Source: a virus
Direction: 5' to 3' (one strand)
IMG/VR virus record: IMGVR_UViG_3300008259_000110
Coordinates: 1-46,351 of that record
DNA length: 46,351 bases
Shown here: positions 17,874 through 35,469 of the stretch, piece by piece
Position numbering within the stretch: position 1 is the first letter of the stretch
Layout: every line of letters starts with the position of its first letter
Made by a program: the position numbers and the translations under genes
Notes under the pieces: generated by a model
Databases searched by the model: none
Told to the model about the DNA's origin: nothing
The model's input: only the letters and a program-made list of their open reading frames with translations

Positions 17874-20800
17874 ATGAAGCAACAGCACCATCCTACAGAT
17901 ACAAGGACATACGAAAAGGGAATATCTTCTGATACAAACAAGGAAATACTTGGAGCAAGTGAGGAAGGTGGACATGTAGACGCATTGAATATGCGTAGTA
18001 TGCCTATGGATGGAAACAACCTTGCTGCTAAGAAAATAAAAGGAGAAGACCTTAACTACCCAAACATAGACAACAGATGTTTCTTAGAGGTTCCAGGAAT
18101 CATTGATGAAGGATATGTTTGTATGATGACTCAAGAGATTGATAATCATATCATTGAGATTTGGGCGCACCCTGAATATGAGGACTATCCCCCATTCATG
18201 CGTGTGGACGGTCAGATTGTCCTGATGAGTGAAAACTTTCCCGTTGACCTAGACCACCCATTGCAGTATCACAAGAACGAAAACTGCGTGAGTGGTGAGT
18301 TCTATATCACGAACAACAATACACCTCCAATGGTATTCTCGTTGAAAGACTTGATGACCCATTCTGGTATGCTTCCTGGCACAGAGTGTGACCTTACATA
18401 CTTTGACTTATTCAATATAGACAAGTACACTATTCAGTCAACTGGTATATTGCATAAACCATTGTTTATTAAGCAAACTGCTTCAGCGTCAGGAGTTTAT
18501 GATTCAGTGATTGGGGGAACAGGAATACCTGTTGGTAGTTACTCTTACTCATATCGCTATGTAACCACGCAAGGAGACAGAACACCTTTCTCTCCATTTA
18601 CGGAATTGATTCCAGTTGTAAGAAATAGTAGCACAGCATTCTCTCCGTACTTTCCAAACACACGGACATTTTCGTCTGTACCTGATATAAATAGCAATAC
18701 GCCATACGGAAACCACATCAGAATAAAGTACGAAAACAACTCTGACTTTTCTTTCATAGAAATCAGAAGAGATTCTTGGTACACTGGAACACCTATAGAT
18801 GTGCCACCAGTATCTGAGGTAATCGGAAGTATTCCAATTACGGCAGGTTTAAATGTCATAAATGTTCTTGATAGAGCAAGTGGAACATTTGAAGGTGCAG
18901 TAATCCTTGACTTAGAAGAACAGACAAATCAATTCAATTCCGTTGAGCGTGCGAAGTCTATTCGCTACTTTAACGACAGATTGTATTTGATGAATATTGC
19001 GTATAAACCTAAAGACTTAGGTGGAGCTATAACATTCGTTGATGATACAGAGCCTGTGTTTCCTGTGATTCAAAAGCTGTTTAAGCAAGGACATAAGAAT
19101 GTGTACAACGCTGCTATACACAAAAGCTACATGCGTGGAGAAAAGCATGCGTTCGCAGTTGTGTTGTTTGACGAAAAACATAGTTCAACATATGCAGAGC
19201 AAATACCGGGTAACGCATTAAACTATCAATTCCCTAACCGAAGAGAGCCACTATCAACGGAATCTTTAGGTATGTCTTATATGGGAACTGTTTACGCTCG
19301 TGACGTTGATGGGAATATAAACCAAACGCATGAGGTGTTTGACCACTACGATGCTGTAAGAAGAGAGGCTTTTGATGATAGCAACGGAGACTACTTGATT
19401 TCAGTTAAGGAAAATGACCCTTTCAATGTATTGACTCCTACGTCTCAAAATGATTCAGACACTACATATCAATATAGAATAGACCAAGAAGTAGGTTTGG
19501 ATGGAACTCCAACTGAAGACTTTAATCCTAAAGGGTTTGGATTGGATTACTATTCAATGGGTTATGCATTTAAGGGGATTGACACATATCCTGAAGAATG
19601 GTCTGATGGTTTCTCTGTTGTTCAGACAGACCCTGCTATGCGTGTGGTTGCCCAAGGCTTTGGATTCTATTCATTATCTGAAGCAGAGAAGCTTGGTCAA
19701 GCTGATGGAGCAAAGAGTACAGATTCAATTTGGGCATATTTCCCAGATTTGGAATTATTGTATCCTGAGGTGTACGAAGATGTATTGAATAATCCTACGA
19801 GTTACCAAATACAATTTGTTTCTCCTCTTGGTTACTACACAGAGGTGTATTCTCACATCAATGATGTAATTGATATTAGAGACAAGGGTGCAGACATGAT
19901 TGTCTATCCACGAATAATTCGTGATGGTATAGATGCTGATGATGGGCAAGCAGTATTTAATCCTGTATTGGAGGCTGATACTGGTATATTAGACCCATTC
20001 ACTGGATACAACTATATCCCTTATGGTAAGTTTACCAATACAACAAATAGTGATTCTCCTGCTTTCCCTTCCAATGGAAACGGAAACGCAGTATTTGATA
20101 TTTTACAGACAAGCAACGTAACTACATATTCTGGTTCTCAGTCTTATTTGAACATTAAAGTTGATGCTCAAATCTATAACGAGACAGGGCCTAACTCTTC
20201 TACCAATCCTAACTTAAATGCAGATGATGCAGGAGTTATGGAATGGAGAGAGCCAATGTATGTAGTGAACTTGATTAAGAACTCAGACATAAACCCTGGG
20301 CTTACTACTCAGTATAAGTACTGCGCTAATTATATTAAGTTCAACTCATTAGTGCTTGAATCAAATGGGGCATTAAATCAATCAGCACAACTTGTATCTG
20401 AAAGATGGGAAGATTGTATTCCTACGTTTACTGGAGAGGTAAATAATGACTACGCAGCATACTACAGATTTGTTTATGTTGTTGACGAGTCCTTAGTAGA
20501 GAGAAGATGGTTGAACGTAACAAATGAATCAGCAGGATTTATCTCTGGTATCTTAGCAACATTGTCTTCTTTTGGCTCTGCGACTGTAACTGACGTATCA
20601 GGTACATACACCATCTATGGAATATATACACATACTCAGACTCAGGATGACATGTGTCCTATATTCACATTGAACTTTGATTTCATTTTGGGATACGAAG
20701 ACTATACATCCATCCCATTAGGAAGCAAGGTGTATGTTAAATACGACAATAGAATTCCTATCCGTATATTCAATGGAGACACCTATGTGAATGAATCTGT

Positions 20801-22382
20801 ATGGGCTGTAATGGATAATGAATATGGTCCAACTGGAGAGCCTAAAGATTCTTTGGCGACATTCACTTGGAACATCCCATTCCCATATAAGAGTTACGAA
20901 TATGCCGATGGATATAGAGTTTGGCAAAACACAAGTCCATGGAACTATGCATCAAACTCTGATAAATTCAAGTTCAATGAAACTGGTATTCGTGGAGCAT
21001 GGATTCGTCAAATGATTACGATGTGGACTGCGGAGACACGAATCAATTTGTCTTTTGCATTCAACAATGAGTCTCCAGAAAAAGCTAACATTGACCAACA
21101 CTTCCCGTTAATCAACTATATTACTCGTCCTTACAAGTGGCAAACGGGTAGCGAAGAAGATAGAACTACGTTTGAAAATAACAACAATCTTAATCCATTG
21201 TACTTCAGCAAGTATGGGTACGAATGGAATTGGTGGTCATATGGAGGATTTAGATTTAGCCCTCAAACAAACATTGATTACACAAAGAGTCAGACCACAA
21301 CCATATATACATCAACGCCTGCCGTTGGCTTTACAGAACAGTCGGATTATTGTACACGAATCATTTGGTCAGAAAGACGACCAATAAACATTCAGAACAC
21401 TCCGACTGTAAAGACTTTTGCTGCTAATAATTACTTTGATATCTCTGATGACACAGGGGAAATTAAGTTTGCATTCAGCTCATTATCTAACGACAAGGGT
21501 AACAACCTTTACGCTATTACAGACAGCGGAGTGTGCTTGTTGCTCGTAGACAAGAGAATCATCCATGAAATCAATGCGAATGAACTAGCAACGATTGGTT
21601 CAGACGTTGGTGGAATTCTTAATCAACTTTGGATTGATAGAACGATTGGAATGACTGATGAGACTTGGAGAAGTTGGGCAGAGTACTCAAATGTTCTATT
21701 CTTCATTAACGATAGAGGGGCATTTGGATTTAGCGACAACGAACTCACTGAGCTTAGCCGTAACGGATTCTACGAGCTGTTTGAAAGACAATTCTTATCT
21801 AAGCTTAAAGATGGGTACATAAGTAATCTTTGTGGAGTATATAACGTAAAGAATAAAGAATACATATTCAACATTGAATTTGACAGAAATCATTCAACTA
21901 TGATTTACGGTGTAGACCAAAAGGCTCTACAATGTCAAAGCTCATACAATTACGATAAGTACCTTCAGCTTGGTCACAAGTTATATGGTATGCGTAATGC
22001 TCAGACGTTTGAACTTGGGATTGGGAATACATTGTTTGACGGAGACATCACTTGCTACATTGCAGGCGTATCTGATAAGGACGCTTACTTTGATAAAGAG
22101 TTTATCCGCATCAGGGTTAACTCTCCATCTAAGCCAGAACAGATATACTTCTACGACAGCTACGATGATTACAAGACTAACAACTATTCATCCGTTGTTG
22201 ATGCTGTAGCTAATCCAATATCCATTAAAGATTACTATGGATACGAGTGCTATATCCCAAGAAAGGATTTAGCTCCACACTATAGACAACAAGGACGTGT
22301 GCTTATCTTTAAGATTGTTAGCACTACAGATGAAGAGTTCTTAGTGGTAAGCACGGGAGTTCAATATAAAGCATTGAAATAA
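17874..22382 (+). CDS. Giant tail hub (muzzle or tail-stabilisation) protein
   Basis: A 1502-residue, beta-dominated, aromatic and Asn-rich protein. The N-terminal region (about 1-120) holds the DTRTYEKGISSDTNKE start typical of podoviral tail-nozzle proteins that work like T7 gp12. The C-terminal third (about 1170-1400) contains repeated blade-like strands, with NNLYAITDSGVCLLL, WIDRTIGMTDETWRSW, and ELFERQFLSKLKDGY. In crAss-like phages the protein at this position is the muzzle that closes the short tail after the rings. No transmembrane or catalytic motif is seen. Confidence 0.7.
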   Translation: MKQQHHPTDTRTYEKGISSDTNKEILGASEEGGHVDALNMRSMPMDGNNLAAKKIKGEDLNYPNIDNRCFLEVPGIIDEGYVCMMTQEIDNHIIEIWAHPEYEDYPPFMRVDGQIVLMSENFPVDLDHPLQYHKNENCVSGEFYITNNNTPPMVFSLKDLMTHSGMLPGTECDLTYFDLFNIDKYTIQSTGILHKPLFIKQTASASGVYDSVIGGTGIPVGSYSYSYRYVTTQGDRTPFSPFTELIPVVRNSSTAFSPYFPNTRTFSSVPDINSNTPYGNHIRIKYENNSDFSFIEIRRDSWYTGTPIDVPPVSEVIGSIPITAGLNVINVLDRASGTFEGAVILDLEEQTNQFNSVERAKSIRYFNDRLYLMNIAYKPKDLGGAITFVDDTEPVFPVIQKLFKQGHKNVYNAAIHKSYMRGEKHAFAVVLFDEKHSSTYAEQIPGNALNYQFPNRREPLSTESLGMSYMGTVYARDVDGNINQTHEVFDHYDAVRREAFDDSNGDYLISVKENDPFNVLTPTSQNDSDTTYQYRIDQEVGLDGTPTEDFNPKGFGLDYYSMGYAFKGIDTYPEEWSDGFSVVQTDPAMRVVAQGFGFYSLSEAEKLGQADGAKSTDSIWAYFPDLELLYPEVYEDVLNNPTSYQIQFVSPLGYYTEVYSHINDVIDIRDKGADMIVYPRIIRDGIDADDGQAVFNPVLEADTGILDPFTGYNYIPYGKFTNTTNSDSPAFPSNGNGNAVFDILQTSNVTTYSGSQSYLNIKVDAQIYNETGPNSSTNPNLNADDAGVMEWREPMYVVNLIKNSDINPGLTTQYKYCANYIKFNSLVLESNGALNQSAQLVSERWEDCIPTFTGEVNNDYAAYYRFVYVVDESLVERRWLNVTNESAGFISGILATLSSFGSATVTDVSGTYTIYGIYTHTQTQDDMCPIFTLNFDFILGYEDYTSIPLGSKVYVKYDNRIPIRIFNGDTYVNESVWAVMDNEYGPTGEPKDSLATFTWNIPFPYKSYEYADGYRVWQNTSPWNYASNSDKFKFNETGIRGAWIRQMITMWTAETRINLSFAFNNESPEKANIDQHFPLINYITRPYKWQTGSEEDRTTFENNNNLNPLYFSKYGYEWNWWSYGGFRFSPQTNIDYTKSQTTTIYTSTPAVGFTEQSDYCTRIIWSERRPINIQNTPTVKTFAANNYFDISDDTGEIKFAFSSLSNDKGNNLYAITDSGVCLLLVDKRIIHEINANELATIGSDVGGILNQLWIDRTIGMTDETWRSWAEYSNVLFFINDRGAFGFSDNELTELSRNGFYELFERQFLSKLKDGYISNLCGVYNVKNKEYIFNIEFDRNHSTMIYGVDQKALQCQSSYNYDKYLQLGHKLYGMRNAQTFELGIGNTLFDGDITCYIAGVSDKDAYFDKEFIRIRVNSPSKPEQIYFYDSYDDYKTNNYSSVVDAVANPISIKDYYGYECYIPRKDLAPHYRQQGRVLIFKIVSTTDEEFLVVSTGVQYKALK

Positions 22383-22408: not shown

Positions 22409-23248
22409 ATGGGAAAAGGGGTCGGAGACGCTGTAAGAAATATAGGTGGTTCACTAATGGGGGCTGCCCAAATTGGTATGGGATTACGTCAAAGAAAGAA
22501 GGCTGATGCCTTACTTCCTACACCAGAAGATAGATTAAGCCGTGGGTACTTGAACATGATTCAAGGAAGACGCAGAGCTTTACAAACTGGTACAGCTAAC
22601 AATACAGACCGTGCTGCTGTTCGTCAGCTGATGAAGAGCATGGGTACTGCAGGGTTCCAAGCGGGAGGACAAGTAAACACAGGCGTGCTATCACAATTAC
22701 TTTCACAACAAGCAGAGAACATGCGTGCTGCTAGTGCCGCTGAAATGGGTCAATTAACTCAGCAAGAAGGCGCTCAAGTAGGTGAGATGGCTCAAAGAAA
22801 ATCTGACCTTGGAATGTATCGTTCTCAGACTATGGCTGCTCGTGCAGAAGGTAATGTAAAAGCAGGAGGTGAAAACCTTATGGCTAGCATTATGGGCGCA
22901 CAAGGTCAAGACAAGGATGGTAATAAAACAGCTGGCAAAACGGGTGGTATTGTTGATATGCTAGGGAAAGGAAAGAAGGCTAAAGCCTTTTCTCAAGTTG
23001 TCCCAATGATAGCAAAAGGAGCCGCTATGGCATCTGACATCAATCTGAAAGAGAACATCTCTCACGTGGGGGTTGAGAATGGATTCAACATTTACGAATA
23101 CAACTATAAGAATGACCCATCATCTCGATACAGAGGTGTAATGGCACAAGAGGTGGCATTAAGCCGTCCTGATGCTGTTGCTACTAAAGATGGACACTTG
23201 GCTGTTTACTACGATGTGATTGGTCTTACTATGAAAAAAATTAAGTAA
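22409..23248 (+). CDS. Putative internal virion protein with C-terminal S74-like domain
   Basis: A 279-residue protein. Residues about 1-200 are helical, Gly/Ala/Met/Gln-rich with a basic start, like small podoviral DNA-ejection proteins. The last 70 residues match the Peptidase_S74 intramolecular chaperone: SDINLKENI (with the Ser-Asp autocleavage dyad), GFNIYEYNYK, YRGVMAQEV and AVYYDVIG. S74 domains usually cap trimeric tail fibres and cut themselves off after folding. Here one sits on a non-fibre helical protein. It follows the tail hub and precedes the large cargo genes. Confidence 0.65.
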   Translation: MGKGVGDAVRNIGGSLMGAAQIGMGLRQRKKADALLPTPEDRLSRGYLNMIQGRRRALQTGTANNTDRAAVRQLMKSMGTAGFQAGGQVNTGVLSQLLSQQAENMRAASAAEMGQLTQQEGAQVGEMAQRKSDLGMYRSQTMAARAEGNVKAGGENLMASIMGAQGQDKDGNKTAGKTGGIVDMLGKGKKAKAFSQVVPMIAKGAAMASDINLKENISHVGVENGFNIYEYNYKNDPSSRYRGVMAQEVALSRPDAVATKDGHLAVYYDVIGLTMKKIK

Positions 23249-23254
23249 TACACA

Positions 23255-25789
23255 ATGGCTAAAGAGAAACGTACAAGAGAGGAGCGTAAGCAGGGAAGAG
23301 AGCTTAGAAGAGACGAAAGGCGTGGTGAAAGAATTAGAAAAGCTATTGCTAAAAGCGATGAAGAGATAGGCTTTAGGAAACAGCCTATTAATCTTGATGA
23401 AAACCTTCGAGACCCAGGTTATACGAAGACAAAGCCTGTGACGGTTGTCATGAGGGACAAAACAATCGATAGACTTAATAACGGTGAATTATATACTCAA
23501 AAGGGTAGTATAGAGGCTTACTCTAAAGACAATACACAAGAGGCTGTTGCTAAATCTGTCAGAACTCAATTAGACTATAAAGCAAGTTTAGGTGAGATTG
23601 ATGCGAAAGACAATACTCAATTAGCTAACGGAGTAATACAATCTCAAGCAAATTCTACTCCAACTGCAGGAGCCGCAATAATATCAGCTATAGGCAATAA
23701 TAGTGATGCCACTACTACTGACTTAAATAAACTTCCAAATGCTGCTACTACTGTAAACACGACTCAAAAGCAAGAAGACGATGCTATTGCTAACAATGCG
23801 ATAAATGTTAATAATGCTGTTGATGCTGAAACTGCTGTTGATGCAACTCAAGCTGAGACAGCCGTAGATGGGGGTGTAACTCCTGCGGCAGGGGCTACAG
23901 AAACTGTGAGCGCTCCTATTGGCGGAGATGGAACTCTTGCTGTTCAGCAGATGCAGGGTGGTGCAGCTACATTTGACCAAGGATTAAATAGAACTAAAGT
24001 TCAAGACGAAGTAACAAATGCCGCCTTTCAAGGATTTTCAAATGCTCCAGTTGTAGCTATTGAAAAATTAGGCATCCAAGACTATTTTCCAAATGCAGGA
24101 GAAAACATTGCTGTGGGTTCTTATAGTGGTAAATACATAGGTAATACGACTATCTTCGCAGCACCCGGAGCAAGAGTTCCATTTGGACTTTATGATGCTC
24201 GTATGCGTGCGTTAAAAGAGGCTGCCGCTGATAGACAGAAAGCTATTGATAAGATTATCACTGCTCCACAAACTGCTGAACAATATCAGCAAGTCTTTAA
24301 TGAGTATTTCTTTAGTGGTGTGGAATCTCTTCGTGCTAAATATGGAGACGACCCTAACGCTATCTTATCAAGCCCAGAAGGAGCAAAATTTTTTGCCAAT
24401 GCCAATGCTATAGCTCGTGACTACACGAAGGCTGTTGCTTATGCTGAATCTACTCTTAAGACATATGCTGATAATAAAACATACCTTCCTGATAGCATGA
24501 GAAACAAATGCTTGGAAGTGTTGTATGCTACGGGTGACGATTGGAAGAAAGCAATGAACGGAGAAGGTTCTTTGATAAACAGTTTGAACGGAGTGTTGTC
24601 TTATGTGAATGTTATGCCTGATATTGAGAAATATGCAACAGAAGCATTAAAGCCTGAAAATTTAACTGAAATGCCTATGAACCTTAAGACTGGAGGGGAG
24701 TATGATAAAGAATCATTTGTCGCAGAGCGTGAAAACTTCTTTATGAGAGTTAGAAGTGGGGGCATTCAAGAAGGCTCCAATCAGTACGTTGAGGGTATTA
24801 GAAAGTATTTTACAGGAGACTATATTAAGGCTATTACAGCCATATGTGCCGCTCAAAATGTTAGTGAGGAACAGACTCAAGATGCTATCAGATACTTTGA
24901 GGGTAGAATCCCTAAAGAGAGCATTGAGTTCAAGTACAGCTCTGTAAATACAAATGCAATGGCATTGGCTGAGTTAGCTCAAAGAGATAAAGAATGGAGA
25001 GCAGAGCAAGACAACAGAAAGCTTAGCTTTGCTGGAATTGTTAATAGTGGAGGAACTGACTATAGAAACCCTAATACTGGTATGACATTTAATGAAGAAA
25101 TAGCTAAATTAAATAAATCAGGTCTTAAAGGTGCTGCTCTTGAAAAGAAACTGGAAGAGTTACATGGTATATACATGGGCGCTACAAGTGGTTCTTTTGC
25201 AAAGGTTGATAAAAATGGAGTAGTAGTTACTACGATTCCTCTTCCAAAAATTGACGTTGTTCAAGCAGACCCTCAAAAAAGGTCTTTCACAGTCACATTT
25301 AAAGACCCTCTAACTGGCAAGCCTGTTTCAAAGCAAATGACTGCTGCTCAGATTGCGCAAACGCCTCCGAACTTTAAACTTTCTATTGGTGGAAAAGTTA
25401 TTGAAAGTAATAGTGATTATGCTACGATAGTTGAAAGGCCAGTTTCAATGGAATCAAGACATGCATATTATGATTCAAATGGAGACATACATTATCAAAC
25501 TGCAGCGAAATTAGATGATTATGATAAGTCTTCATTAGGTAGAAGAGTCATATTGGAAACAGAAAAAGTTCAGGTATATATACCAAAAACCATGTATGCT
25601 GAAGACGGAAGGCCATACCAAGGTTACGAAGCAATTCCAGGCCAAGTGCAAGGAAACACCTACAATATATCGAATCCTGCTGGACAAGCAATGGTCGATG
25701 AACGAGTAGGATTTAGCCGATGGCAGTCTGCTCAAGCACAAGCTGGCGGACAAACAACAGTAAGCTCTGGTTCAACAACGACACGATAA
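23255..25789 (+). CDS. Large putative internal (cargo/ejection) protein, 844 residues
   Basis: The first ~50 residues are extremely basic (repeated R/E/K blocks). Residues about 120-235 are Ala/Thr/Asn/Val low-complexity. The central part (about 300-570) is helical. The C-terminal part (about 650-800) has beta segments including RSFTVTFKDPLTGKPVSK. No enzyme motif was recognised. Size and location between the tail hub and the giant protein genes fit an internal virion protein ejected with the DNA, by analogy to podoviruses and crAss-like cargo proteins. Confidence 0.65.
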   Translation: MAKEKRTREERKQGRELRRDERRGERIRKAIAKSDEEIGFRKQPINLDENLRDPGYTKTKPVTVVMRDKTIDRLNNGELYTQKGSIEAYSKDNTQEAVAKSVRTQLDYKASLGEIDAKDNTQLANGVIQSQANSTPTAGAAIISAIGNNSDATTTDLNKLPNAATTVNTTQKQEDDAIANNAINVNNAVDAETAVDATQAETAVDGGVTPAAGATETVSAPIGGDGTLAVQQMQGGAATFDQGLNRTKVQDEVTNAAFQGFSNAPVVAIEKLGIQDYFPNAGENIAVGSYSGKYIGNTTIFAAPGARVPFGLYDARMRALKEAAADRQKAIDKIITAPQTAEQYQQVFNEYFFSGVESLRAKYGDDPNAILSSPEGAKFFANANAIARDYTKAVAYAESTLKTYADNKTYLPDSMRNKCLEVLYATGDDWKKAMNGEGSLINSLNGVLSYVNVMPDIEKYATEALKPENLTEMPMNLKTGGEYDKESFVAERENFFMRVRSGGIQEGSNQYVEGIRKYFTGDYIKAITAICAAQNVSEEQTQDAIRYFEGRIPKESIEFKYSSVNTNAMALAELAQRDKEWRAEQDNRKLSFAGIVNSGGTDYRNPNTGMTFNEEIAKLNKSGLKGAALEKKLEELHGIYMGATSGSFAKVDKNGVVVTTIPLPKIDVVQADPQKRSFTVTFKDPLTGKPVSKQMTAAQIAQTPPNFKLSIGGKVIESNSDYATIVERPVSMESRHAYYDSNGDIHYQTAAKLDDYDKSSLGRRVILETEKVQVYIPKTMYAEDGRPYQGYEAIPGQVQGNTYNISNPAGQAMVDERVGFSRWQSAQAQAGGQTTVSSGSTTTR

Positions 25790-25799
25790 ACACGATAAA

Positions 25800-26267
25800 A
25801 TGAAAAAATTACTTACAAGCCAAGAAGTAGAGATGATGAACAATCTTGGTAATTTAGAGATGTTTGCAAGCCATACTTACAAACATTTAGCAAACAGCAT
25901 GAAGACAATCGGTTTCCTTGGAGCTGAGAAATTCTTCAATGCAGAATGCTTATCTGAACTTTCGCATTACGATAAATTGCAAACATTTATGAATGACATG
26001 AACGAGCAGTTAGAGGTTCGTTCTTTAGATGCCATTGATGATGAGATTGAAGATTTAATGCAGGCATTTACTCACGCAGTAGAGATGGAATCAGACCTAC
26101 TTGAAGAGTATGAGTTTGCATGGGAGAAGGCATCTCCAAAGATGAAAGCATTCCTAAAAGAGCTAATTGATATTCAGGTTCAGAGCGTTGGTGAGTACGG
26201 TGATTTAATCGCTCGACTCAGTAGAACAAGCGAGCCGATTCTTGTTGACCAAGAGTTGGGTAAGTAA
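25800..26267 (+). CDS. Ferritin-like diiron protein
   Basis: A 155-residue all-helical protein that aligns block by block with E. coli FtnA. N-L-E20 lines up with FtnA E17; E53-x-x-H56 lines up with E50-x-x-H53; E97 lines up with E94; and FLKELIDIQ (Q126) lines up with FLQWYVSEQ (Q127), all without gaps within each helix. FtnA E130 is replaced by Ser (S129). The classic A site (E, E, H) and a bridging Glu are thus present, the third-site ligand is not. Ferritins oxidise and store iron in a 24-subunit shell. The gene lies between two genes for giant putative internal virion proteins and has its own terminator. A Dps or rubrerythrin-type member is less likely. Confidence 0.75.
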   Translation: MKKLLTSQEVEMMNNLGNLEMFASHTYKHLANSMKTIGFLGAEKFFNAECLSELSHYDKLQTFMNDMNEQLEVRSLDAIDDEIEDLMQAFTHAVEMESDLLEEYEFAWEKASPKMKAFLKELIDIQVQSVGEYGDLIARLSRTSEPILVDQELGK

Positions 26268-26285
26268 CCTGCCTATATATAGATG

Positions 26286-26317
26286 AGCGACCTACACAAT
26301 GGGTCGCTTTTTCTTTG
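26286..26317 (+). terminator. Intrinsic terminator after the ferritin-like gene
   Basis: AGCGACC (26286-26292) and GGTCGCT (26302-26308) form a seven-pair stem with a nine-base loop, followed by TTTTTCTTT. It separates the 25800 gene from the giant gene downstream, which has its own -7 box. Confidence 0.8.
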
Positions 26318-26374: not shown

Positions 26375-29300
26375 ATGGGCGCAGGTTCTAACAATTTAAT
26401 GTCTACTCAGACGGGTGGAGTAGGCGAGACAATTCAAGCTGAGAATACTACTCAAGCAACTCCACAAGAATTCCAAGCAGATATACCACCAGTACAAGCA
26501 GAGACTCCGCAGACAGAAGTTCCAAGTGAGGTTCCTGTTGAGCAAATTGCAAACGAAGAGCCACCTCCAGTAGAGGGGCCGCTTCCTGCTGAAGAACAGC
26601 CTGCTATTCCCATGGTTCCGACTGAAGAACCAATGGTTGTAGAGTCTAGCGCAGAACAGCCTATAGTTCCACAGGCACCCATTGAAACTGAAACAGATGT
26701 TATCAACAGACTTGGGCTGGAAAATGTAGAGCCTGCATTTGATTCTGATAATGATTTATTCTCAAATAAAAACGTAACTACAACTCCTGATGGCATTCCT
26801 GTTCTTGGTTCTGAGCAACCAGTTGAAGTGAAAGATGAAGGAGAAGCTCCGCTTATACAAGAAGAAGAAAAAGAAGAGGTACTTGAGCCAGAATTTACCC
26901 CTGACGGCATTCCAATCGAGAAAGGTCCTCAGTCAGCGCCAAAAATCAACCTTGCGGACATTAATGCTAAATACAAGAATGAAGGTATTAAAATTGATGA
27001 CTTAGGGAAGGTAACTGTTGGTGTAGAGGATAAGAAAGATGCTCAAGGATTGCCTGATGGTTCTTACCGATTGGCAGGTAAATCAGCTAACTACCAAAAA
27101 ATAGATGGTAAATGGTACAAGGATGCGAACTTGACTGGAGACTATCAACCGATAGGTGGCGACAATGTAGAGTCTAGAGTAGGGTATCTTGAGTCTAATG
27201 CTCAAGCAACTGTATCTGAAACACAGAAGAAAGCAGGTGAAATCATCAATCAGAGATTTGGTGACTTACGAAAAGAAGTAGAAGGTAATATGGTTAATGA
27301 AACCAGTTACACTTTTGATGATTTGACTCAAGGTAACATCGGCTCCGCTGATGAAAAATACAATTCAGATGGAACTATAAACTTCAATTACGTCCCTAAA
27401 GCAGAGACACCTTTTAATGCAACTCCAGTATCTAAAGATTATACTCCTTCAATAGATACAGCTTTTGGTACAATTCCACGCAAAGAGCAGAAAAATGATA
27501 CAGATGGAATATATAAATTTCCTGGCTCAAACGCATCTTATCAACGAAAAAATGGAGACTGGTTTATTGACCCTAAAGGTGGTGTTAATTTTGTTCCTCT
27601 TAAAAATGGAAATGTAGCGCTTAGAAAAGCTAAGCTTGATACTGATGCTGTGTTGCAAAGTAAACCTGACGGAGTATATGTTTACCCAGGAAGTAAAGCT
27701 TCGTATAAGCGTGTCAATGGGGATTGGCTTATAGACCCAAGGGGAGGAACAGACTTCGTTGAAATGAAAGAGGGGAATGTGGCTGAAAGAAAGTTGAGGC
27801 TTGATTTAGGGGCTAAGCCTGCTGCGACTGTTTTTGATGCTCGTGCAGTAATGACTGGAAAGGAGTTTCAGAAAGGTAAAGAGAACATGAATGCCGATTA
27901 TGTAGCCGAGAAAGCTCAAGAGTCAAAAGAAAAATTCAATAAAGCTCAAAACTTCACAAAGACAAATTTAAGTTTAAAGCTTAACAAGTCTTTGAATGGA
28001 GACCAAATGACATCTTTAATTGAATATCAGAATAAGATTAAAGACATTATAGGTGACGGCTCTTACACGGCTGATAAATCTGCAAAGGTAGCGCAAGTAT
28101 TAAAAGAAGCAGAATTATATTTCAATGAATGTAAACAGATAAATGCTGAAATTAGCGAAGCTCAATCTCAAGGTAGAAGTCTCTCTCAAATATCTCTTGA
28201 AAAGAAAATAGACTTAGCCGAAGGCCTACTAACTGACAAGGGAAATGGAGTTTATTGGGGTGTTGATGGAGGTCTTAAAGATTTTTCTCAAAAGGAAATG
28301 TTTGATGTGACATCTGGCATGGCTTCGTTCATACTTGATAATGTTGATAACGGAAAGATGAGATACGATGCTGAGGCAGGGCAATATGTCATCTCTCCAA
28401 ATGTAAGCGCTACTGAAAGACAATATCTTGAGAACAAACTAGGGACTTTTGTTGCTGAGTATAGTGCTATGCAAGGTGAGAAATACGCTGAAGCACAAGA
28501 CAAGATACAAGACGATAGACAAAAGCTTGCCGCAGAAAAGCGTAATATAGTTAAGCTTGAGAGTTTATTGGCTCAGATGACAAGAGATGGAGTGGATGAG
28601 AAGTCTGAGGAATATAAGGCTGTAGTGTCTGAGCTTGATAGGTCAAAATCACAAGTAGACGAGTATGATGCCTTAATTGATAAGAAGACATATGCAACAG
28701 ACGCTGCGTTCTTGACTGAGCCTAAGAAAACTGCTCAGCAACTTGCCATGAGTATGTCAGAGGATGCGTACACTATTGTGGCAGCTATACCTAAAGACAT
28801 TACTCCAAAACAGCAATTCGACTTGATATACGAGAGATTGCTGGCTCAAAACGACAAACTCGCTAAAGACAATAACTTAAACACTGAAGGATTAGGAAAT
28901 GCCAACATGAAGGTTAAAGACATGCTTGATTGGGATGGTTTCTATGCATTGTCAAAAACAGAAAAGCAGTGGTTGCAAAATAAAGCGACATTGAATAAAA
29001 TGGCTTCGCTTTACTTCAATAATAGCGACATGGTTATTGAGAATGGTTCTGGCTTTTGGGAATCATTTAATAACGCATTATTTTCAACATTATTTCCAAA
29101 TACAGCAAAAGCTGAGGGCAAGATTAACTTGTCAGAGGCATCTGCTGAAACTGCTCAAAAACTTCAAGAGTTTGGGTTTAAGGATGAAGACTTTGTTACT
29201 CCTGATGTTATTAAGAAAATTGAAGAACAATCTAAAGTTGACTTTTGGAGTGCAGAGAAATTTGGTACCATGACTGGTACTACAGTTGCTGTAATTGCTC

Positions 29301-30436
29301 CTTTGTTTTTAACTGCAGGGATTCCAGCTGCTTCATTAAGGGTTATAACTGGACTAGAAGCGTTAATCACTGGAGCAGAAGTAACTAAGGTGGCGAAAAT
29401 TGTAGGAACTGCTGAAAAAATATATAGCACTGCCTTAAACTCTACAAGATTCGGTAGATTCCTTGTTCCAGTAATTGAGTCGGCTACAAAAGCTGAGATT
29501 GCAGGTAGGGTATTTACTCAACAGAAAGATGAACTCAACTTCTTGTCTTTTATGGCGGGAGGTGTAGTTTCTGAATCTCTTGGAGTGGTGTTTGCTAAGA
29601 TGCCTAAAGAACAAGTCTACAATTACTTAAAGGGTATATTTGGTAACAAAATTGATGCAGCCATCAATGTAATTAAAAAAGGAGGCGAACTCACTGCCAC
29701 TGGTATCGGTGAAACGGGAGAAGAAACAATGCAAGAGCTTGTTGGCATTTATCAACGAACTGATAGCTGGCAAGAGATGAAAGCTGAGCTAGACAAGCAA
29801 TTTGGAACATTTGACCAAGTTCAAGAATTTATTATTTCTTCATTCATCATGGGTGCTGGTTTTGGTTTATCTAAGCCTAAATCAGCAAAAGAAGCCTACG
29901 ATAAATTGCCGCCAGAATCAAGGGAGCAAGTAGATGCTGCTATCAGTGCTATAAAGAATGATTTAGACAAGGCTGATGATGCGGTTGAAGAGTTTGCTGA
30001 GAATAAAGAAAAGCAACAAGCGGTAGAAAAAACAATCGAAGAAAATGATAAAAAAGACGAAGAAGGGGTATCAGGTCAAGTCGGAGAAGGGCAAGAATCT
30101 GTCGAAGGACAACCTGTCACTGAACCAAGCCAAGAAGCGCCTAGCACTGGTGGAGTGGTTCAAGGAGAACAAGGGCAAGCTGAACAAGTAGCTCCTACTG
30201 CCGAAGCAACTACTGAAACGCCTGCTGAAGCCCCTAAGCCACAAAAAGTAACTGCACGAAGCCTTGAAGAAGCTCAAGAGTTGGTTAAACAGGGTTATGT
30301 TCCTGCTGACAAATCTCTCAGCTCAACAGCTCTAGGTAACATATTTAATACAAGGAAGAAGCTTAACATGGTAAAAGACAGTATGAAATTGAAACATCTA
30401 CTGACGAAAACGATAGAAAAGAATTTAATGAAATAG
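26375..30436 (+). CDS. Giant putative internal virion protein, N-terminal part (frame broken near 30376)
   Basis: A 1353-residue frame. The Pro/Glu/Val-rich N-terminus (1-190) is probably disordered and has two TPDGIP copies. Three related repeats lie near 225-265, 377-425 and 430-478 (pattern PDG-x-Y, A-x-Y, NG-(D/K)-W). Long helical regions follow (500-950), then a hydrophobic Ala/Gly/Ile stretch near 965-990 and an acidic low-complexity tail. The last 19 residues look non-coding, while the other frame (30367 onwards) continues as a good coding sequence. A -1 shift at the A-run 30373-30376 fuses it to the next gene, giving about 3031 residues. Likely DNA-ejection or cargo protein. Confidence 0.75.
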   Translation: MGAGSNNLMSTQTGGVGETIQAENTTQATPQEFQADIPPVQAETPQTEVPSEVPVEQIANEEPPPVEGPLPAEEQPAIPMVPTEEPMVVESSAEQPIVPQAPIETETDVINRLGLENVEPAFDSDNDLFSNKNVTTTPDGIPVLGSEQPVEVKDEGEAPLIQEEEKEEVLEPEFTPDGIPIEKGPQSAPKINLADINAKYKNEGIKIDDLGKVTVGVEDKKDAQGLPDGSYRLAGKSANYQKIDGKWYKDANLTGDYQPIGGDNVESRVGYLESNAQATVSETQKKAGEIINQRFGDLRKEVEGNMVNETSYTFDDLTQGNIGSADEKYNSDGTINFNYVPKAETPFNATPVSKDYTPSIDTAFGTIPRKEQKNDTDGIYKFPGSNASYQRKNGDWFIDPKGGVNFVPLKNGNVALRKAKLDTDAVLQSKPDGVYVYPGSKASYKRVNGDWLIDPRGGTDFVEMKEGNVAERKLRLDLGAKPAATVFDARAVMTGKEFQKGKENMNADYVAEKAQESKEKFNKAQNFTKTNLSLKLNKSLNGDQMTSLIEYQNKIKDIIGDGSYTADKSAKVAQVLKEAELYFNECKQINAEISEAQSQGRSLSQISLEKKIDLAEGLLTDKGNGVYWGVDGGLKDFSQKEMFDVTSGMASFILDNVDNGKMRYDAEAGQYVISPNVSATERQYLENKLGTFVAEYSAMQGEKYAEAQDKIQDDRQKLAAEKRNIVKLESLLAQMTRDGVDEKSEEYKAVVSELDRSKSQVDEYDALIDKKTYATDAAFLTEPKKTAQQLAMSMSEDAYTIVAAIPKDITPKQQFDLIYERLLAQNDKLAKDNNLNTEGLGNANMKVKDMLDWDGFYALSKTEKQWLQNKATLNKMASLYFNNSDMVIENGSGFWESFNNALFSTLFPNTAKAEGKINLSEASAETAQKLQEFGFKDEDFVTPDVIKKIEEQSKVDFWSAEKFGTMTGTTVAVIAPLFLTAGIPAASLRVITGLEALITGAEVTKVAKIVGTAEKIYSTALNSTRFGRFLVPVIESATKAEIAGRVFTQQKDELNFLSFMAGGVVSESLGVVFAKMPKEQVYNYLKGIFGNKIDAAINVIKKGGELTATGIGETGEETMQELVGIYQRTDSWQEMKAELDKQFGTFDQVQEFIISSFIMGAGFGLSKPKSAKEAYDKLPPESREQVDAAISAIKNDLDKADDAVEEFAENKEKQQAVEKTIEENDKKDEEGVSGQVGEGQESVEGQPVTEPSQEAPSTGGVVQGEQGQAEQVAPTAEATTETPAEAPKPQKVTARSLEEAQELVKQGYVPADKSLSSTALGNIFNTRKKLNMVKDSMKLKHLLTKTIEKNLMK

Positions 30437-30513: not shown

Positions 30514-33500
30514 TTGATGGCTAAAGATAAAGAGATGCCTAATGGGTTTGGTTCTTATATGGATAGGTCTGATGCAAGGCAAACAAAAGAAGTGGCAGAA
30601 AAATATTCTGAAGATGTTAGCAATAAGGAAGCTATAAAAGACTTTAAGGATGCGTTTTTTGGAAATCCAAATAATTGGTATGCTGATGCATTAAAATTAA
30701 GAGAATCTGTTAGAGCCTATACGGAAAATGGAGGTTCATTCAAAGACCTTTTACGCTCAGTTCAGCGTGAATTTGAATCTGATGGATTTACAGAAGAAGA
30801 AGCGGCAAGCGTCATAAATGCAAAGCTAAATAAAATAAAAAATAGGGAATTAGAGGCTTCTTCAAATGAGCAAGCAAGAGAGGAACTTGCTGCCGAAACT
30901 CCTATGGTTGAAGCAGCTACCAAACCTATAAGCACTCCTACTGCTGCTGAACCCGTAGCTCAAGCTACTGAAATTGCAAAAACAACTTCAAACACTGATG
31001 AAAAAAGAAACAATATTGATGAGCTAAACAAAATATATCAATCAGATTTCTTTAGAGATAACAGAGATGCATTCTACAGAAACGCCAAAGAAGAATTAGA
31101 GGCTGAGGCTAAAAAAAATAAACGAATATTTGGCAAGCCTAAGGCTGTCACAAAAGAAGAGATTAAAAAAAGAGCATTTGATAACTTTGCTAAATCTGTT
31201 CAATCTAAAAAAGATTCAGAAAGCACTGGTGAACTTAATTATGCTGTTTTTGATGGTCTAGGCGGATGGTATATTAAAGATAAAAGCGATGCAGCTACGG
31301 CAGATGTTGCTAATGAGGACAACCATCCAGACCTTAGGCATGAATACGGTATTAACAGAAGAAGGGAAAATTGGGCTGAATTTAACGAGAGCTATACAAG
31401 AGAAGGAAGAAGAATTGTAAACATTAGAGTCCCTGTAAACACAGGGATAGATACTTCTAGGCCATCTGTATTTGTTTCTGTGACAATGGAAGTTCCCAAA
31501 GGATTTACGGCTGAAGAAATTGCACAGCCTATAGTAGATAATATGAAGACTTTTAATGGTCAATTATCTTCTCAAGAAGCCTCTCAAAAAATAGTTGAGC
31601 AAGCAAAGGCTATAATAAATGGCGCTCCAAAATCTACAACTGAAGCCCCTACCGTCGAATCCTCAGCAACTGAAACAACAGCTGAGCCAGTAGTAGAAGG
31701 AAGAACTATCTCTCAAATTGCCAAGGACTTTGCTGATAAGATTAGAGCAGGGAAATTAGGTGGAGGATTGAAGTCTTCTATCCCTGGATTTGATGCCGCA
31801 TGGAACGCTTCATTAGATGCTGTAGCTAAAGTGGTTGAGGCCGCAGGTATGTCTGCTGAGACGATTCAAAAAGCAATCGAAGCAGGACTTCAAGTAGTGA
31901 AACAAAGCCAATGGTTTAAGGACTTAAATAAAGACCAAAGAAGACAGGCAACTGCTGATTACAAGCAAGGCATGAATGACATGCTCAATGAGGGCAAGAT
32001 GACTTCTGCTGAGAAAGCTGCGGCTAAGGAGTTCGGTAAAAAAGTTGCTTCTGCAACAGGGACTGCTAAGCAACCGAAGACTGTTCAGATGACTGAATCT
32101 CAAGCCATAAGAGAAAGAATGAGAGTCGCTGGTCAAACAGCTAAACAGCTTAGAGATATACGCAGACAAATTCTTGACTATGCAAAAGCAAATTTGCCAA
32201 AAAGTGAATATACAAACCTTGAGATTAACAGAATTACAGCAGCATTAAATGCTAAAACCCTTGAGGCTGCATTAGATAAGATTGATGCTATTATTGCTAA
32301 GAAACAAGAAGGTATAGCCAATCGTGATGCAAAGACTGCTGAGAGAAAAAGAAAGGCAACCATCAAGGATATCAAGGATAAGATGAAGAGCAAAAGGACT
32401 GTCCTTAGTAAGCAGGGAAACAGATGGGTTGGTAAGACCACTGTGGAGGCTCAGAAAGAATATTTCAAGTTTATCAATAACGTAAAAATTGACGAGCTTG
32501 ATGGAAAGACGCAAGAAGAACTTGACGAAATCAATGACATCATTGATGGAATTGTATCTGAAGGTAAGGCTGATTACAAGCGTTTGAAAGAGCTAGATGC
32601 TGATGCTAAAAGAGAACGTGCTGCTGCATTGATACAAGGTCTTGCTAAAGGCCAGGGGACTACCCTTAATTCTATTGATGAGATAATGGATTTCTTTGAT
32701 AAGGGAGGAAAAGTAGTCGTTGATGGTAGACTATATGATAAGGGTTCATTTGAGCAACTAATAAATAAAGACACTCAAAAAGGAAAGCAGGGCGAGAAAA
32801 TAGCAGATATTGAGGAGGAGATAGATGAATTAAAAAAAGATTATGAAACTCGATTGGAAGAGGTTATAGTCGAAGGAGGTAATGAATCTACTGACCCTGA
32901 TTTGAAAGCTATAACAAAAAAGATTGCTACTAAGAACAAGCAACTCAGCACGGCTCAAGCGAAATATGACTCTATGCCTAATGCAGATGTAGAAATTACT
33001 GGAGCGACTGGATATAAGCAAGAAAACGCTGAGTTAGCAAAGCTTTCGGAAAGAACAAGAAAGAAAAAATTCTTTAATGGAGTAATTAATTTCTTAACTC
33101 CTGCAAAAGCAATTAATGACTTGTATTCCCTATACACTAAAACTTGGTCTAAGAGTTCAGCTGTAGCTAAATTCGTTAAGGACAATATAATGGAGCCAGT
33201 TAAAAAGGCTTATGTTGCTAGAGATATTGCTTATAGCAAAAAGGTAAATGAATACTACAAAAAATTAGATGAAATATTCGGTACATATCCTGCCAACAAA
33301 ACCAAGGAAAGAGCAGGAGTTTCTGCTCGTGGAGCTAAAGGGGTCGACAAATTATCTGAGTCGGTAGATAAAATTGTTACTTCTGAGGTGGCGAAGGGGG
33401 TTAAGATAACAAACGGTCATGTTATAGATTACTACAATCTTGCCCAAACAAAAGATGGCGTAAAAAGATTAGAGAATTCTGGTGTTGATGTAGACGCAGT

Positions 33501-35469
33501 TATTGCTCATGTGGAAGGTGATGCTCAGTTAAAAAAATATGCTGATTTCTTGATGGAGAAATACCAAGAGCTTGGAGTTGAATACGAGCCAACATATGTG
33601 GCATACACAGGAACTCCATTCCCTTCAGGTGATTTCCCTTACTACCCTGCTAATGCCTCTGACTATAGCCAAGATTTTGTAAATGAGGGAGACTTAATGG
33701 GGGATAATGGGTCATTCAATATGATGAATGCCACTTCCAATAACATGAAGGCAAAGAGAAACTTCCAAGGTAATTTCAACATTGCCATGGATGCTCACGC
33801 TAAATATCTTGATTATGTGAAAAACATGGAACATGCCAAGCATTTCATGCCTATTGCTAAAAAGGTTAATGAATTGTTTAGCACAATGAATGCTCCACAT
33901 TTAATAAAGAATTTAGGAATTGATGACTATAACGACATTAAAACACATACAGCTAGGGTTCTTAGTAATCAAAACGTAGGAGGCTCAAACACTGCCGCTA
34001 ATATTCTTAATGCAATTAGAAATTTCACTGTTATTGCTACACTCGGTCTTAAGCCATCTTCATTGGCTAAGCAGTATGTTGGTTTTACTCACTATTGGGT
34101 AGCGGGTATAGATAAAGGATTAGACCCACTACAGATATGGACTGGAAGACCTACTAATGATAATGAATCAGAGTTGTTCAGAGAAATACATAATAGCGAT
34201 TATGTAAAAGAGCGATTAACTGGTCAGCACATTGATGTGGAGATGAGAAGGTTATTGGAGCAAGCTCAAAACAGCAAATCAGCGAAGGTTTGGTCTAAGG
34301 TCTCTCAGCTTGCGATGGCTCCAGTGAGATATGGTGATAAATTTGCTTTGATATATGGCCCTGGAGGCGGAGTTGCATTTGCTGTGGCATCATACAGACG
34401 TGCCTTGATGGATGGAATGACTCATGAGGAAGCAAAAGCTTATGCATTAGAGCAGTTTATTACGGAAACCGAATTAGCTCAGCAGTCTACTCGTGCTGAC
34501 TTGACGAGCAACATACAGCTTGACCCAACATTCAGAATGCTTGGTATGTACCGAACAGGACAGATGGCTGCGGCTAAGAAAGTGGTTACAGGAATGCGTA
34601 CTATTTATCAGGCAAATAGGATTCAAGCAAAAGAAGGAGTAGAAGCAAGAAGAGCAGTTATACCAGATAGAGAAATTGTAAAATCATCAGTCGATATTAC
34701 ATACTATACACTATTCGCATCTGTATTCTTTAGTGCAATCGCTAGTGGAGCGTTGGCTGTATTCATGGGAGATGATGAAGACGAAAAGAAAAGAGCATTC
34801 CACGATGTAGTTATGGACTCAGTAGGCTCAACATTACAAGGTTACGGAATGCCTGGATTTATTATGGATGGACTCTTAAATCACATGAGAGGTGATGAAT
34901 GGAAAGATAATGTTCCACAATTAAGAACATTGATGGGGTGGTGGGACAGTGCAAACATAGTTATTGACGCATCAAAAAGAAAGTGGGAAAACATAGACAA
35001 ATCAATGCAAAAAGAAGTATTCTTAAAGCAAGTTGGTAGTACTATGAATTCTCGTCAAGTATATGATGAAGTTACGGGAGAATACGATGAAAGAGCATTC
35101 TACAATAAGCTTACAGATGAAGAATACAACAAACTAGTTAAGAATATTGGAGCAAAAAATATATCAGACTTTGTGGGTAATGTAGGTAAATGGATGAAAG
35201 AACCTTCAGTTTCTGGAGCTATAGACGCTTTAATGAATTGGGACACTGACTACATGGAAAAAAATAGAGAGAGAGGTAAAAACGATAGAATATTTGAAAT
35301 GTTCTATGGCGTTCCTTATATAGACAATGAAAAAGAATATCAGACTCCTTATATGGACCCAGACAAGCAGCCTGATGATATTTTTACAGAATCAGATATT
35401 CAAGATGTAGACGTAGAAGATGGAAGAACAAAAGCTGTAAGGGAAAAATACAGACCGTTTGGTAACTAA
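30514..35469 (+). CDS. Giant putative internal virion protein, C-terminal part
   Basis: A 1651-residue frame from a TTG at 30514 (ATG at 30517). Coding-like sequence in the same frame reaches back to 30367 with no earlier ATG or GTG, so this is best read as the continuation of the 26375 gene. The protein is helical with coiled coils, basic low-complexity parts, a segment near 390-450 with IAKDFADKIRAGKLGG, and a hydrophobic stretch near 1395-1420 (ITYYTLFASVFFSAIASGAL) that may insert in membrane. The RNFTVIATLGLKPSSLAKQ block (near 1168) is reminiscent of very large polyvalent phage proteins. No RNA polymerase or lysozyme motif was seen. Confidence 0.75.
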   Translation: MMAKDKEMPNGFGSYMDRSDARQTKEVAEKYSEDVSNKEAIKDFKDAFFGNPNNWYADALKLRESVRAYTENGGSFKDLLRSVQREFESDGFTEEEAASVINAKLNKIKNRELEASSNEQAREELAAETPMVEAATKPISTPTAAEPVAQATEIAKTTSNTDEKRNNIDELNKIYQSDFFRDNRDAFYRNAKEELEAEAKKNKRIFGKPKAVTKEEIKKRAFDNFAKSVQSKKDSESTGELNYAVFDGLGGWYIKDKSDAATADVANEDNHPDLRHEYGINRRRENWAEFNESYTREGRRIVNIRVPVNTGIDTSRPSVFVSVTMEVPKGFTAEEIAQPIVDNMKTFNGQLSSQEASQKIVEQAKAIINGAPKSTTEAPTVESSATETTAEPVVEGRTISQIAKDFADKIRAGKLGGGLKSSIPGFDAAWNASLDAVAKVVEAAGMSAETIQKAIEAGLQVVKQSQWFKDLNKDQRRQATADYKQGMNDMLNEGKMTSAEKAAAKEFGKKVASATGTAKQPKTVQMTESQAIRERMRVAGQTAKQLRDIRRQILDYAKANLPKSEYTNLEINRITAALNAKTLEAALDKIDAIIAKKQEGIANRDAKTAERKRKATIKDIKDKMKSKRTVLSKQGNRWVGKTTVEAQKEYFKFINNVKIDELDGKTQEELDEINDIIDGIVSEGKADYKRLKELDADAKRERAAALIQGLAKGQGTTLNSIDEIMDFFDKGGKVVVDGRLYDKGSFEQLINKDTQKGKQGEKIADIEEEIDELKKDYETRLEEVIVEGGNESTDPDLKAITKKIATKNKQLSTAQAKYDSMPNADVEITGATGYKQENAELAKLSERTRKKKFFNGVINFLTPAKAINDLYSLYTKTWSKSSAVAKFVKDNIMEPVKKAYVARDIAYSKKVNEYYKKLDEIFGTYPANKTKERAGVSARGAKGVDKLSESVDKIVTSEVAKGVKITNGHVIDYYNLAQTKDGVKRLENSGVDVDAVIAHVEGDAQLKKYADFLMEKYQELGVEYEPTYVAYTGTPFPSGDFPYYPANASDYSQDFVNEGDLMGDNGSFNMMNATSNNMKAKRNFQGNFNIAMDAHAKYLDYVKNMEHAKHFMPIAKKVNELFSTMNAPHLIKNLGIDDYNDIKTHTARVLSNQNVGGSNTAANILNAIRNFTVIATLGLKPSSLAKQYVGFTHYWVAGIDKGLDPLQIWTGRPTNDNESELFREIHNSDYVKERLTGQHIDVEMRRLLEQAQNSKSAKVWSKVSQLAMAPVRYGDKFALIYGPGGGVAFAVASYRRALMDGMTHEEAKAYALEQFITETELAQQSTRADLTSNIQLDPTFRMLGMYRTGQMAAAKKVVTGMRTIYQANRIQAKEGVEARRAVIPDREIVKSSVDITYYTLFASVFFSAIASGALAVFMGDDEDEKKRAFHDVVMDSVGSTLQGYGMPGFIMDGLLNHMRGDEWKDNVPQLRTLMGWWDSANIVIDASKRKWENIDKSMQKEVFLKQVGSTMNSRQVYDEVTGEYDERAFYNKLTDEEYNKLVKNIGAKNISDFVGNVGKWMKEPSVSGAIDALMNWDTDYMEKNRERGKNDRIFEMFYGVPYIDNEKEYQTPYMDPDKQPDDIFTESDIQDVDVEDGRTKAVREKYRPFGN

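Follow-up and report, generated by a model that had tools for sequence, protein, structure and literature searches.

A phage ferritin family embedded in virion gene blocks and linked to a putative partner domain on the neighbouring protein

The DNA analysed here ("the window") is the whole 46,351-nucleotide stretch of the IMG/VR virus record IMGVR_UViG_3300008259_000110. An intact open reading frame of 155 codons lies on its + strand, with an ATG at 25800 and a stop codon ending at 26267, in agreement with the original prediction, which had described the product as a phage ferritin-like protein encoded among internal virion protein genes. Upstream, on the same strand, are genes for a probable terminase large subunit (688 aa, 2883–4949; phrog_5989, E = 2.3e-8) and for a P22-like portal protein (735 aa, 8199–10406; PF16510, E = 1.3e-19; phrog_6547, E = 5.7e-34), the latter marking the gene block as one devoted to virion morphogenesis. 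A 1502-aa protein (17874–22382, +), conserved in the set of related phages that we call group A, and a putative virion structural protein (279 aa, 22409–23248, +; phrog_6121, E = 5.5e-11) come closer to the ferritin gene. The 1502-aa protein gave a weak profile match to the muzzle protein of the crAss-like phages of group B (53% over 101 columns), the corresponding values being 14% for phi14:2 and 1% for crAss001. When the window phage was compared by profiles with the hallmark proteins of phi14:2, we obtained 81% for the portal, 9% for the terminase large subunit (TerL) and 1% for the major capsid protein (MCP), in a comparison against crAss-like phages that covered pairs with a length product of up to 1.6 million, 35 of the 702 pairs being passed over; selected large pairs were compared separately.

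The ferritin gene is preceded, after a 10-nt gap, by a gene for an 844-aa protein (23255–25789, +) and directly followed by genes for a 1353-aa protein (26375–30436, +) and a 1651-aa protein (30514–35469, +; 1650 aa if counted from the ATG at 30517), all three recognized as open reading frames with homologues. Family searches returned no identifying match for any of them. Their earlier description as putative ejected proteins is therefore a positional one.

Two more genes of the window deserve mention. At 16682–17311 (+), among the virion genes, there is a 209-aa protein of phrog_3704, which shares 64.6% identity with a protein from Synechococcus phage S-B05 and has further relatives in cyanophages, pelagiphages and four Flavobacterium phage records; it is labelled ferredoxin, and PurM in some records, but these labels look unreliable, since no Pfam match was found for the protein. 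At 43576–44187 (–), close to a DnaB helicase fragment at the right end of the window, a gene encodes a phosphoribosyl-ATP pyrophosphohydrolase-like domain (PRA-PH, E = 1.7e-15).

The product of the 25800–26267 gene is almost certainly a real ferritin. It matched the Pfam family PF00210 (Ferritin) with 47.7 bits and E = 2e-12, against a cut-off of 24.5 that was exceeded by all 24 records searched, and its top match in a phmmer search of the PDB was the ferritin 7y74 from sea cucumber (E = 1.7e-10). Two NCBIfam ferritin models matched below threshold; for one model, NF007638, the equivalog of E. coli non-haem ferritin, the score was 19.6 bits vs a cut-off of 178. Residues 5–98 also matched phrog_16594 (E = 2.9e-7), which PHROG labels as of unknown function.

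An AlphaFold2 monomer model, computed from an alignment of 23 phage sequences, had a mean pLDDT of 95.2. The predicted helices (residues 7–37, 40–66, 86–110, 113–141 and 146–153) follow the order A–E of classical ferritins and form a four-helix bundle with a long BC connection and a C-terminal helix E (146–153). The comparison with known ferritin structures, which the original prediction had proposed as a check, came out in its favour: Foldseek ranked E. coli FtnA first (E = 1.4e-7, TM 0.93), and VIA-align superposed the model on T. maritima ferritin 1vlg (Z 23.8, rmsd 1.1 over 154 residues) and on E. coli ferritin 4xgs (Z 23.6), with rmsd 1.0–1.1 over 152–154 residues for the two together. 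A chance resemblance to ferritin was ruled out by the Pfam score, the predicted fold, the VIA-align Z scores and the invariant ligands described below.

The ferroxidase ligands proposed at the outset, E20, E53, H56, E97 and Q126, were confirmed, being invariant in the 23 rows of alignment A2 and in all 111 full-length members of the family. The position of FtnA Y24 corresponds, by register, to Y27 of the window protein. The counterpart of FtnA E130 (residue 129) is a serine, as had been stated, and so is residue 52, the counterpart of FtnA E49 by register. E49 and E130 make up the third iron site of the E. coli FtnA type, and a site of this type was not found in the window protein or in the family. 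Its predicted fold, its ligands and its family score mark the protein as a ferritin, with cage formation and activity as candidate properties. The residues present very probably make it ferroxidase-competent, with a di-iron centre of the classical type (E/E/H/E/Q plus Tyr).

Directly 3' of the gene, at 26285–26309 (+), there is a hairpin followed by a T run that resembles an intrinsic terminator, and its sequence is identical 3' of the ferritin gene in the sister contig of the window, L001. As to the claim that the gene has its own terminator, the count of such hairpins (1, vs a mean of 0.5 and an sd of 0.7 in shuffled sequences) was not far above chance.

Four IMG/VR scans seeded with ferritin, the window and two contigs from metagenome-assembled genomes (MAGs) together gave 143 loci. 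A ferritin ORF was present in 142 of them (L212 being the exception), and removal of identical ferritin DNA left 114 unique loci, with both the window and the MAG contig L213 retained. From the last scan, which by itself yielded 166 relatives, 80 were taken into the analysis. Full-length relatives are 31–95% identical to the window protein, and the 111 full-length sequences share, besides the ferroxidase ligands, the invariant residues E49, G131, Y133, D135 and D150. Over the 114 members, with one gap at each position, the Y27 position is occupied by Tyr 92 times and by Trp 21 times; at residue 129 there are 61 Ala and 52 Ser, and at residue 52 there are 67 Asp, 21 Ser, 21 Glu, three Gly and one Ala. 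The ratio dN/dS was 0.07–0.12 in each of the six close-relative pairs tried, which supports purifying selection on the family.

Searches of annotated phages with tblastn, using four family members (the window protein and one ferritin each from groups B, C and E, defined below), gave no match for the window, group B and group E proteins and one weak match for the group C ferritin (MT838721.1, 22.7%), so that, save for this weak match, no cultured member of the family was found among annotated phages. Likewise, neither Megablast of window positions 21000–45000 nor a search with the window portal protein matched any annotated phage.

A first scan of contigs from prokaryote genomes found no family match, and two MAG contigs came out of a pattern-limited scan covering 84,980 genomes of bacteria and archaea. 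The two contigs, L213 and L212, carry fragments of the family and were binned as Zoogloea and Rhodoferax MAGs; both are likely phage contigs and hint weakly at the hosts of group C. Of 398 genomes in the phylum to which the Zoogloea MAG belongs, that MAG was the only one to match at 1e-20. We built a tree from 31 phage rows, 14 cellular proteins of the ferritin superfamily and one MAG contig. The phage rows and the MAG contig, which is nested inside, form one group beside FtnA and apart from the sampled cellular proteins; the fork of this group has a support of 94/92, below the 95/80 star, and carries a long-branch warning. On this placement, with the same support and warning, a recent carry-over of a host gene was rejected. 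The cellular sampling of the tree lay outside the Bacteroidota, and a distant cellular origin of the family may lie in that phylum.

The loci were sorted into groups by gene context. Group A, to which the window belongs, consists of contigs no longer than 65 kb; a P22-like portal was detected in the window and in 10 of 12 group A relatives, the other two being fragments or giving no match. In the group A contigs L002–L012 the ferritin gene sits between homologues of the 1353-aa and 1651-aa proteins of the window, at 1 nt from the next gene in all 11 cases; the 1353-aa homologue thus adjoins ferritin on its upstream side, the 844-aa homologue is two genes upstream, and the 1651-aa homologue follows directly. 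In the window and L001, the ferritin gene is shifted upstream by one gene and falls between those for the 844-aa and 1353-aa proteins. In L001 (genome G001) the 1353-aa and 1651-aa proteins are fused into one ORF of 2844 aa; the same pair is split in the window and parted by ferritin in the other group A phages.

Group B comprises crAss-like phages, where ferritin lies beside the virion RNA polymerase gene or splits it, and group C collects other contigs, mostly with a giant protein on either side of ferritin. The 13 loci of group D have ferritin directly 3' of a portal gene (phrog_6547, E = 1e-61 in L135; the other 12 portals are 77–98% identical to that of L135). In the two loci of group E, ferritin comes after a minor head/DNA-pilot protein, which itself follows TerL and portal, as tested in L119. 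Beyond these groups, L190 has ferritin after another portal (phrog_12082, E = 5.6e-166), and L205 has it between a GroES-like gene and a virion structural gene; the former, a co-chaperonin-like gene directly upstream of ferritin, was seen in this one phage contig (L205:5150-5980).

An upstream neighbour was available in 109 of the 114 unique loci, the other five having none within the available sequence. The neighbours were grouped by single linkage, with many of them incomplete at the end of the stretch and with portal membership rechecked directly. The largest cluster (69 loci) was mostly made of giant proteins; next came a crAss-like cargo/polymerase cluster (19), the portal cluster (13), the 844-aa homologues of the window and L001 (two) and the minor-head/DNA-pilot cluster of L119 (two). 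The single cases were the L190 portal, the GroES-like gene of L205, a neighbour of L179 (where both flanking proteins lack a family assignment) and that of L185, which is on the opposite strand at the contig edge. The upstream gap was 30 nt or less in all 108 same-strand loci, and the downstream gap in 99 of 113. The family therefore recurs within the morphogenesis or giant-gene blocks of unlike phages, and this repeated location, together with the sequence, the predicted fold, the ligands and the purifying selection, supports the initial reading of a ferritin that a phage encodes among its virion genes.

The contig G017 shows that group B includes crAss-like phages by the usual hallmarks of Crassvirales. 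Compared with phi14:2 by profiles, it gave values of 100 for TerL, portal and muzzle, 99.6 for MCP, 97.5 for the tail tubular protein, 91 for IHF and 97 for RNA polymerase, and one of its cargo proteins matches phi14:2 and/or crAss001. Two of its other cargo genes did not match their expected counterparts: the 2805-aa protein gave 6.6% with g67 of phi14:2, and the 881-aa one gave 36% with phi14:2 g68 and 0.1% with crAss001 gp45. The other group B records were placed through their similarity to G017 only.

Within this group we could distinguish two arrangements. In nine contigs (type 1: L018, L014, L016, L024, L104, L105, L109, L111 and L113) the polymerase motif DFDVD occurs 266–279 residues into the protein after ferritin; in five others (type 2) a DFDID motif occurs 2011–2511 residues into it; in L015, L019, L101, L102, L103 and L115 the downstream gene is too partial to show the motif. 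Type 1, represented by alignments led by G017, was compared with Flavobacterium phage FpV4, whose gp32 is a single ORF of 4287 aa: the upstream neighbour of ferritin aligned with gp32 residues 721–2885 and the downstream neighbour with residues 2899–4219, both with a profile probability of 100, so that the two proteins flanking ferritin correspond to different parts of a single FpV4 chain. The downstream protein also matched the catalytic polymerase g066 of phi14:2 (97%) and gp50 of crAss001 (98.9%), and the upstream protein gave 47% with gp50. A further value of 98% between the upstream protein and phi14:2 g066 was set aside, as the alignment consisted of one column. Judging from these alignments, the crAss-like virion RNA polymerase of type 1 apparently consists of two chains, whose genes are parted by that of ferritin. 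In type 2, the upstream neighbour resembles crAss001 gp47 (99%), and the downstream protein aligns with residues 282–2315 of the 2412-aa polymerase gp50 of crAss001 (100%).

Some of the neighbouring giant proteins are of a kind known from virus particles. Mass spectrometry detected the cargo proteins gp45, gp46, gp47, gp49 and gp50 in crAss001 virions, according to Bayfield 2023 (PMC10172136), and the phi14:2 record marks g065–g067 as found by MS/MS. The crAss-like transcription block and the placement of Fpv3 are treated in PMC7886860; a literature search for work on the structural proteins of Fpv3, a Flavobacterium phage, came back empty. In FpV4, FPSV-S29, phi14:2 and crAss001, no ferritin was detected by the family profile up to E = 10, under conditions where the profile did detect the ferritin of the Zoogloea MAG, and nothing scored above the Pfam cut-off of PF00210. 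Ferritin is therefore not a general requirement for assembly.

The protein encoded after ferritin usually begins with a short conserved stretch, consisting of a Cys followed by a predicted hairpin and helix, for which only a poor structural model was obtained (pLDDT 70). This domain adjoins ferritin in 93 of the 114 unique loci, a figure that holds partly by construction, as the HMM was built from adjacent N-termini. The 21 loci without it are the window, L001, the 13 group D loci and six others. In the window, the domain was not found on the 1651-aa protein, whose homologues in other group A phages start with it when directly downstream of ferritin, and the N-termini of the two neighbours of the window ferritin gave at most 0.4% with the domain profiles.

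Profiles of the domain built for groups A (12), B (20) and C (57) matched one another with 99% (A–B), 96% (A–C) and 89% (B–C), and past the domain the alignments shown between the downstream proteins of groups A and B revealed no similarity. We considered whether the domain is a general start of giant cargo proteins, and rejected it: in 33 control comparisons, between the three profiles and the N-termini of 11 giant proteins from reference phages, the values reached at most 3.3%. The N-termini of phi14:2 g066 and of crAss001 gp49 and gp50 also carry a Cys-containing M..C stretch. Weak hits only were obtained among annotated phages, in a Leptolyngbya phage (E = 0.06) and in an Arthrobacter phage exonuclease (E = 0.04).

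A six-frame search of 2.68 Mb found the domain beside ferritin in 112 loci, the remaining hits being second copies of the same contigs and one hit in L123 (domain E-value 0.22). Scans of IMG/VR with the domain only were less circular, with the limit that the queries came from ferritin-linked copies and the patterns reach close relatives only. In the first, ferritin ended no more than 150 nt upstream of the domain in 40 of 41 loci, and in the exception the contig ended 40 nt upstream. Thirty of these 41 contigs were already among the ferritin loci; of the 11 new ones, 10 have an upstream ferritin and one is cut. In the second scan, ferritin was within 150 nt upstream in 20 of 20 loci.

As judged from sequence, then, these phage ferritins make up a large family with ties both to virion genes and to a putative partner domain. 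The linkage suggests that the short N-terminal stretch is a ferritin-docking domain, and we consider it somewhat more probable than not that, in the relatives, ferritin is a physical partner of the next protein. Linked inheritance of neighbouring genes does not by itself prove contact.

The reading that we favour, by a modest degree of belief, is that of a late, ferroxidase-competent ferritin, made with the particle proteins and probably docked, in most relatives, to the next giant protein. Ferritin would be expressed late in infection, alongside the proteins that make up the particle or fill it. The giant protein, by its short N-terminal domain, probably holds ferritin in most relatives, and the pair would travel together and may be packaged, ferritin possibly entering the head with its giant partner; in the crAss-like relatives, the docking partner would be the virion RNA polymerase, whole or as one of its halves. 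Chemically, ferritin would most likely oxidise Fe(II) and sequester it, and the benefit could be that Fenton damage is kept from the cargo proteins and the phage DNA, whether while the particle is being assembled, inside it or on entry. The family, its ligands, the selection on it, its gene positions and its linkage to the domain were observed directly, and the fold was predicted with confidence; from these we infer late expression, docking to the next protein, packaging, assembly of a cage, the chemistry with iron and the benefit.

The linkage to the domain in most relatives counts, indirectly, in favour of carriage in virions; the window and L001 are without it. We would give even chances to packaging in the virions of at least some relatives, and place it somewhat below that in the phage of the window. 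A ferritin cage of 24 subunits is about 12 nm across. In crAss001, the tail constrictions are under 50 Å wide as reported in PMC10172136, so that delivery of such a cage would call for its dismantling, unless the cage stays in the head.

Late gene blocks also gather accessory genes whose products never enter the particle, and the ferritin might be the product of such an auxiliary metabolic gene, acting free in the infected cell to buffer Fe(II) and peroxide, with its location setting only the late timing. We hold this for a possibility of some weight, short of a probable one. The intact ferroxidase site would fit, as would, in the window, the terminator-like hairpin 3' of the gene and the missing linked domain, and related phage genes have been interpreted in this way, both the Dps and Mn-catalase genes of gut phages (in the account of Benler 2021, PMC8008677) and the ferritin of giant viruses (in that of PMC7136201). 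However, this explanation does not account for a domain found only beside ferritin (the 40 of 41 and 20 of 20 loci above), nor for the recurrence of ferritin beside portal, minor-head and giant genes in unlike phage types. In the lineage of the window, the position one gene further upstream, the lack of the linked domain and the hairpin mean that ferritin may act as a free late protein, which for the window's own phage we regard as at least as likely as a docked ferritin.

That the ferritin fold was reused as a structural or scaffolding part of the virion, such as an internal head protein, with iron chemistry secondary, seems improbable. The portals that adjoin ferritin in the 13 group D loci and in L190, as well as the minor head protein that adjoins it in the two group E loci (a family match tested in L119), would suit such a part, but a purely structural use would not require five ferroxidase ligands to be invariant in 111 of 111 sequences. 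A "Ferrojan Horse", in which carried ferritin would deliver iron to the host or gain entry through its iron-uptake system, would fit an iron-loaded ferritin in the particle and has been published as an idea, both on the iron of tail fibres (PMC11705849) and on Vi01-like phages that have a protein called ferritin (PMC10892097), but it is very improbable here, as the gene positions suggest cargo or the interior of the head, not the tail tips, and as the Vi01-like study, with one host tested, reported no dependence on TonB or FeoB (PMC10892097).

Returning to the docked ferritin, its widest version would be that unlike tailed phages package ferritin with their ejected proteins, tethered by a docking domain on a giant partner that in crAss-like phages would be the virion RNA polymerase, cut in two in some of them by the ferritin gene, so that the particle would carry an iron-oxidising cage guarding, or delivered with, the first proteins to enter the cell. 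We put this forward tentatively. The observation at the origin of this work was confirmed and its interpretation partly supported, and the finding is larger than first noted: what emerges is an extensive family of phage ferritins, set within virion gene blocks and accompanied by a candidate partner domain open to binding tests. Should the protein be packaged, virions might bring along iron or a sink for peroxide, and iron carriage by phages would become directly measurable.

With the bacterial non-haem ferritins (FtnA, 4xgs; T. maritima, 1vlg) the window protein shares the predicted fold, the helix order A–E, the five ligands and, by register, the Tyr at the position of FtnA Y24, despite an identity of about 20%. 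The family departs from E. coli FtnA at position 130, which is Ala or Ser in 113 of its 114 members, and at position 49, which is varied, and the tree places it apart from the sampled FtnA proteins. The best sequence match in the PDB is an animal ferritin, sea cucumber 7y74, yet at 25–26% identity. At the positions of Q141 and A144 of human H ferritin, the phage family has a Gln and a small residue.

Among the other ferritin-like proteins described in viruses, Dps belongs to a different branch, without helix E. The phage Dps and Mn-catalases (in Gratiaviridae and in Lactobacillus phages) resemble the present family as genes of the ferritin-like superfamily with a proposed role in oxidative stress; those of gut phages are described in Benler 2021 (PMC8008677), and the Dps-like gene of a Lactobacillus phage lies near DNA metabolism genes, according to PMC6669764, unlike the window ferritin in its virion block. 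Ferritin has also been described in giant viruses (PMC7136201). Two BFVD entries named ferritin, A0A8D9C9X5 from an uncultured marine phage (E = 1.3e-6, 23% identity) and A0A8S5Q7U4 from Siphoviridae sp. ctrzs15 (E = 3.9e-5, 17% identity), have the ferritin fold. For the Vi01-like phage Sajous1, PMC10892097 reports that gp217 was called a ferritin by Phyre2 (confidence 96.7, 22% identity), was seen by mass spectrometry and was proposed to form an operon with a tail completion protein, and it raises a "ferrojan horse" idea; in the genome of Vi01, which is related to Sajous1, we found no match to PF00210 or to the family profile up to E = 10. Save for this Vi01-like claim, none of the papers examined places a ferritin in crAss-like phages or within a block of virion genes.

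For the gene arrangement, a known counterpart is the polymerase block of crAss-like phages (g065–g067 in phi14:2; gp47, gp49 and gp50 in crAss001). In phi14:2 and crAss001 the whole records have no ferritin, and the linked domain was not found in the stretches of the block that were examined, whereas group B has the same block with ferritin inside. The polymerase that is apparently split there would represent a natural two-chain version of the single-chain virion RNA polymerase of crAss-like phages.
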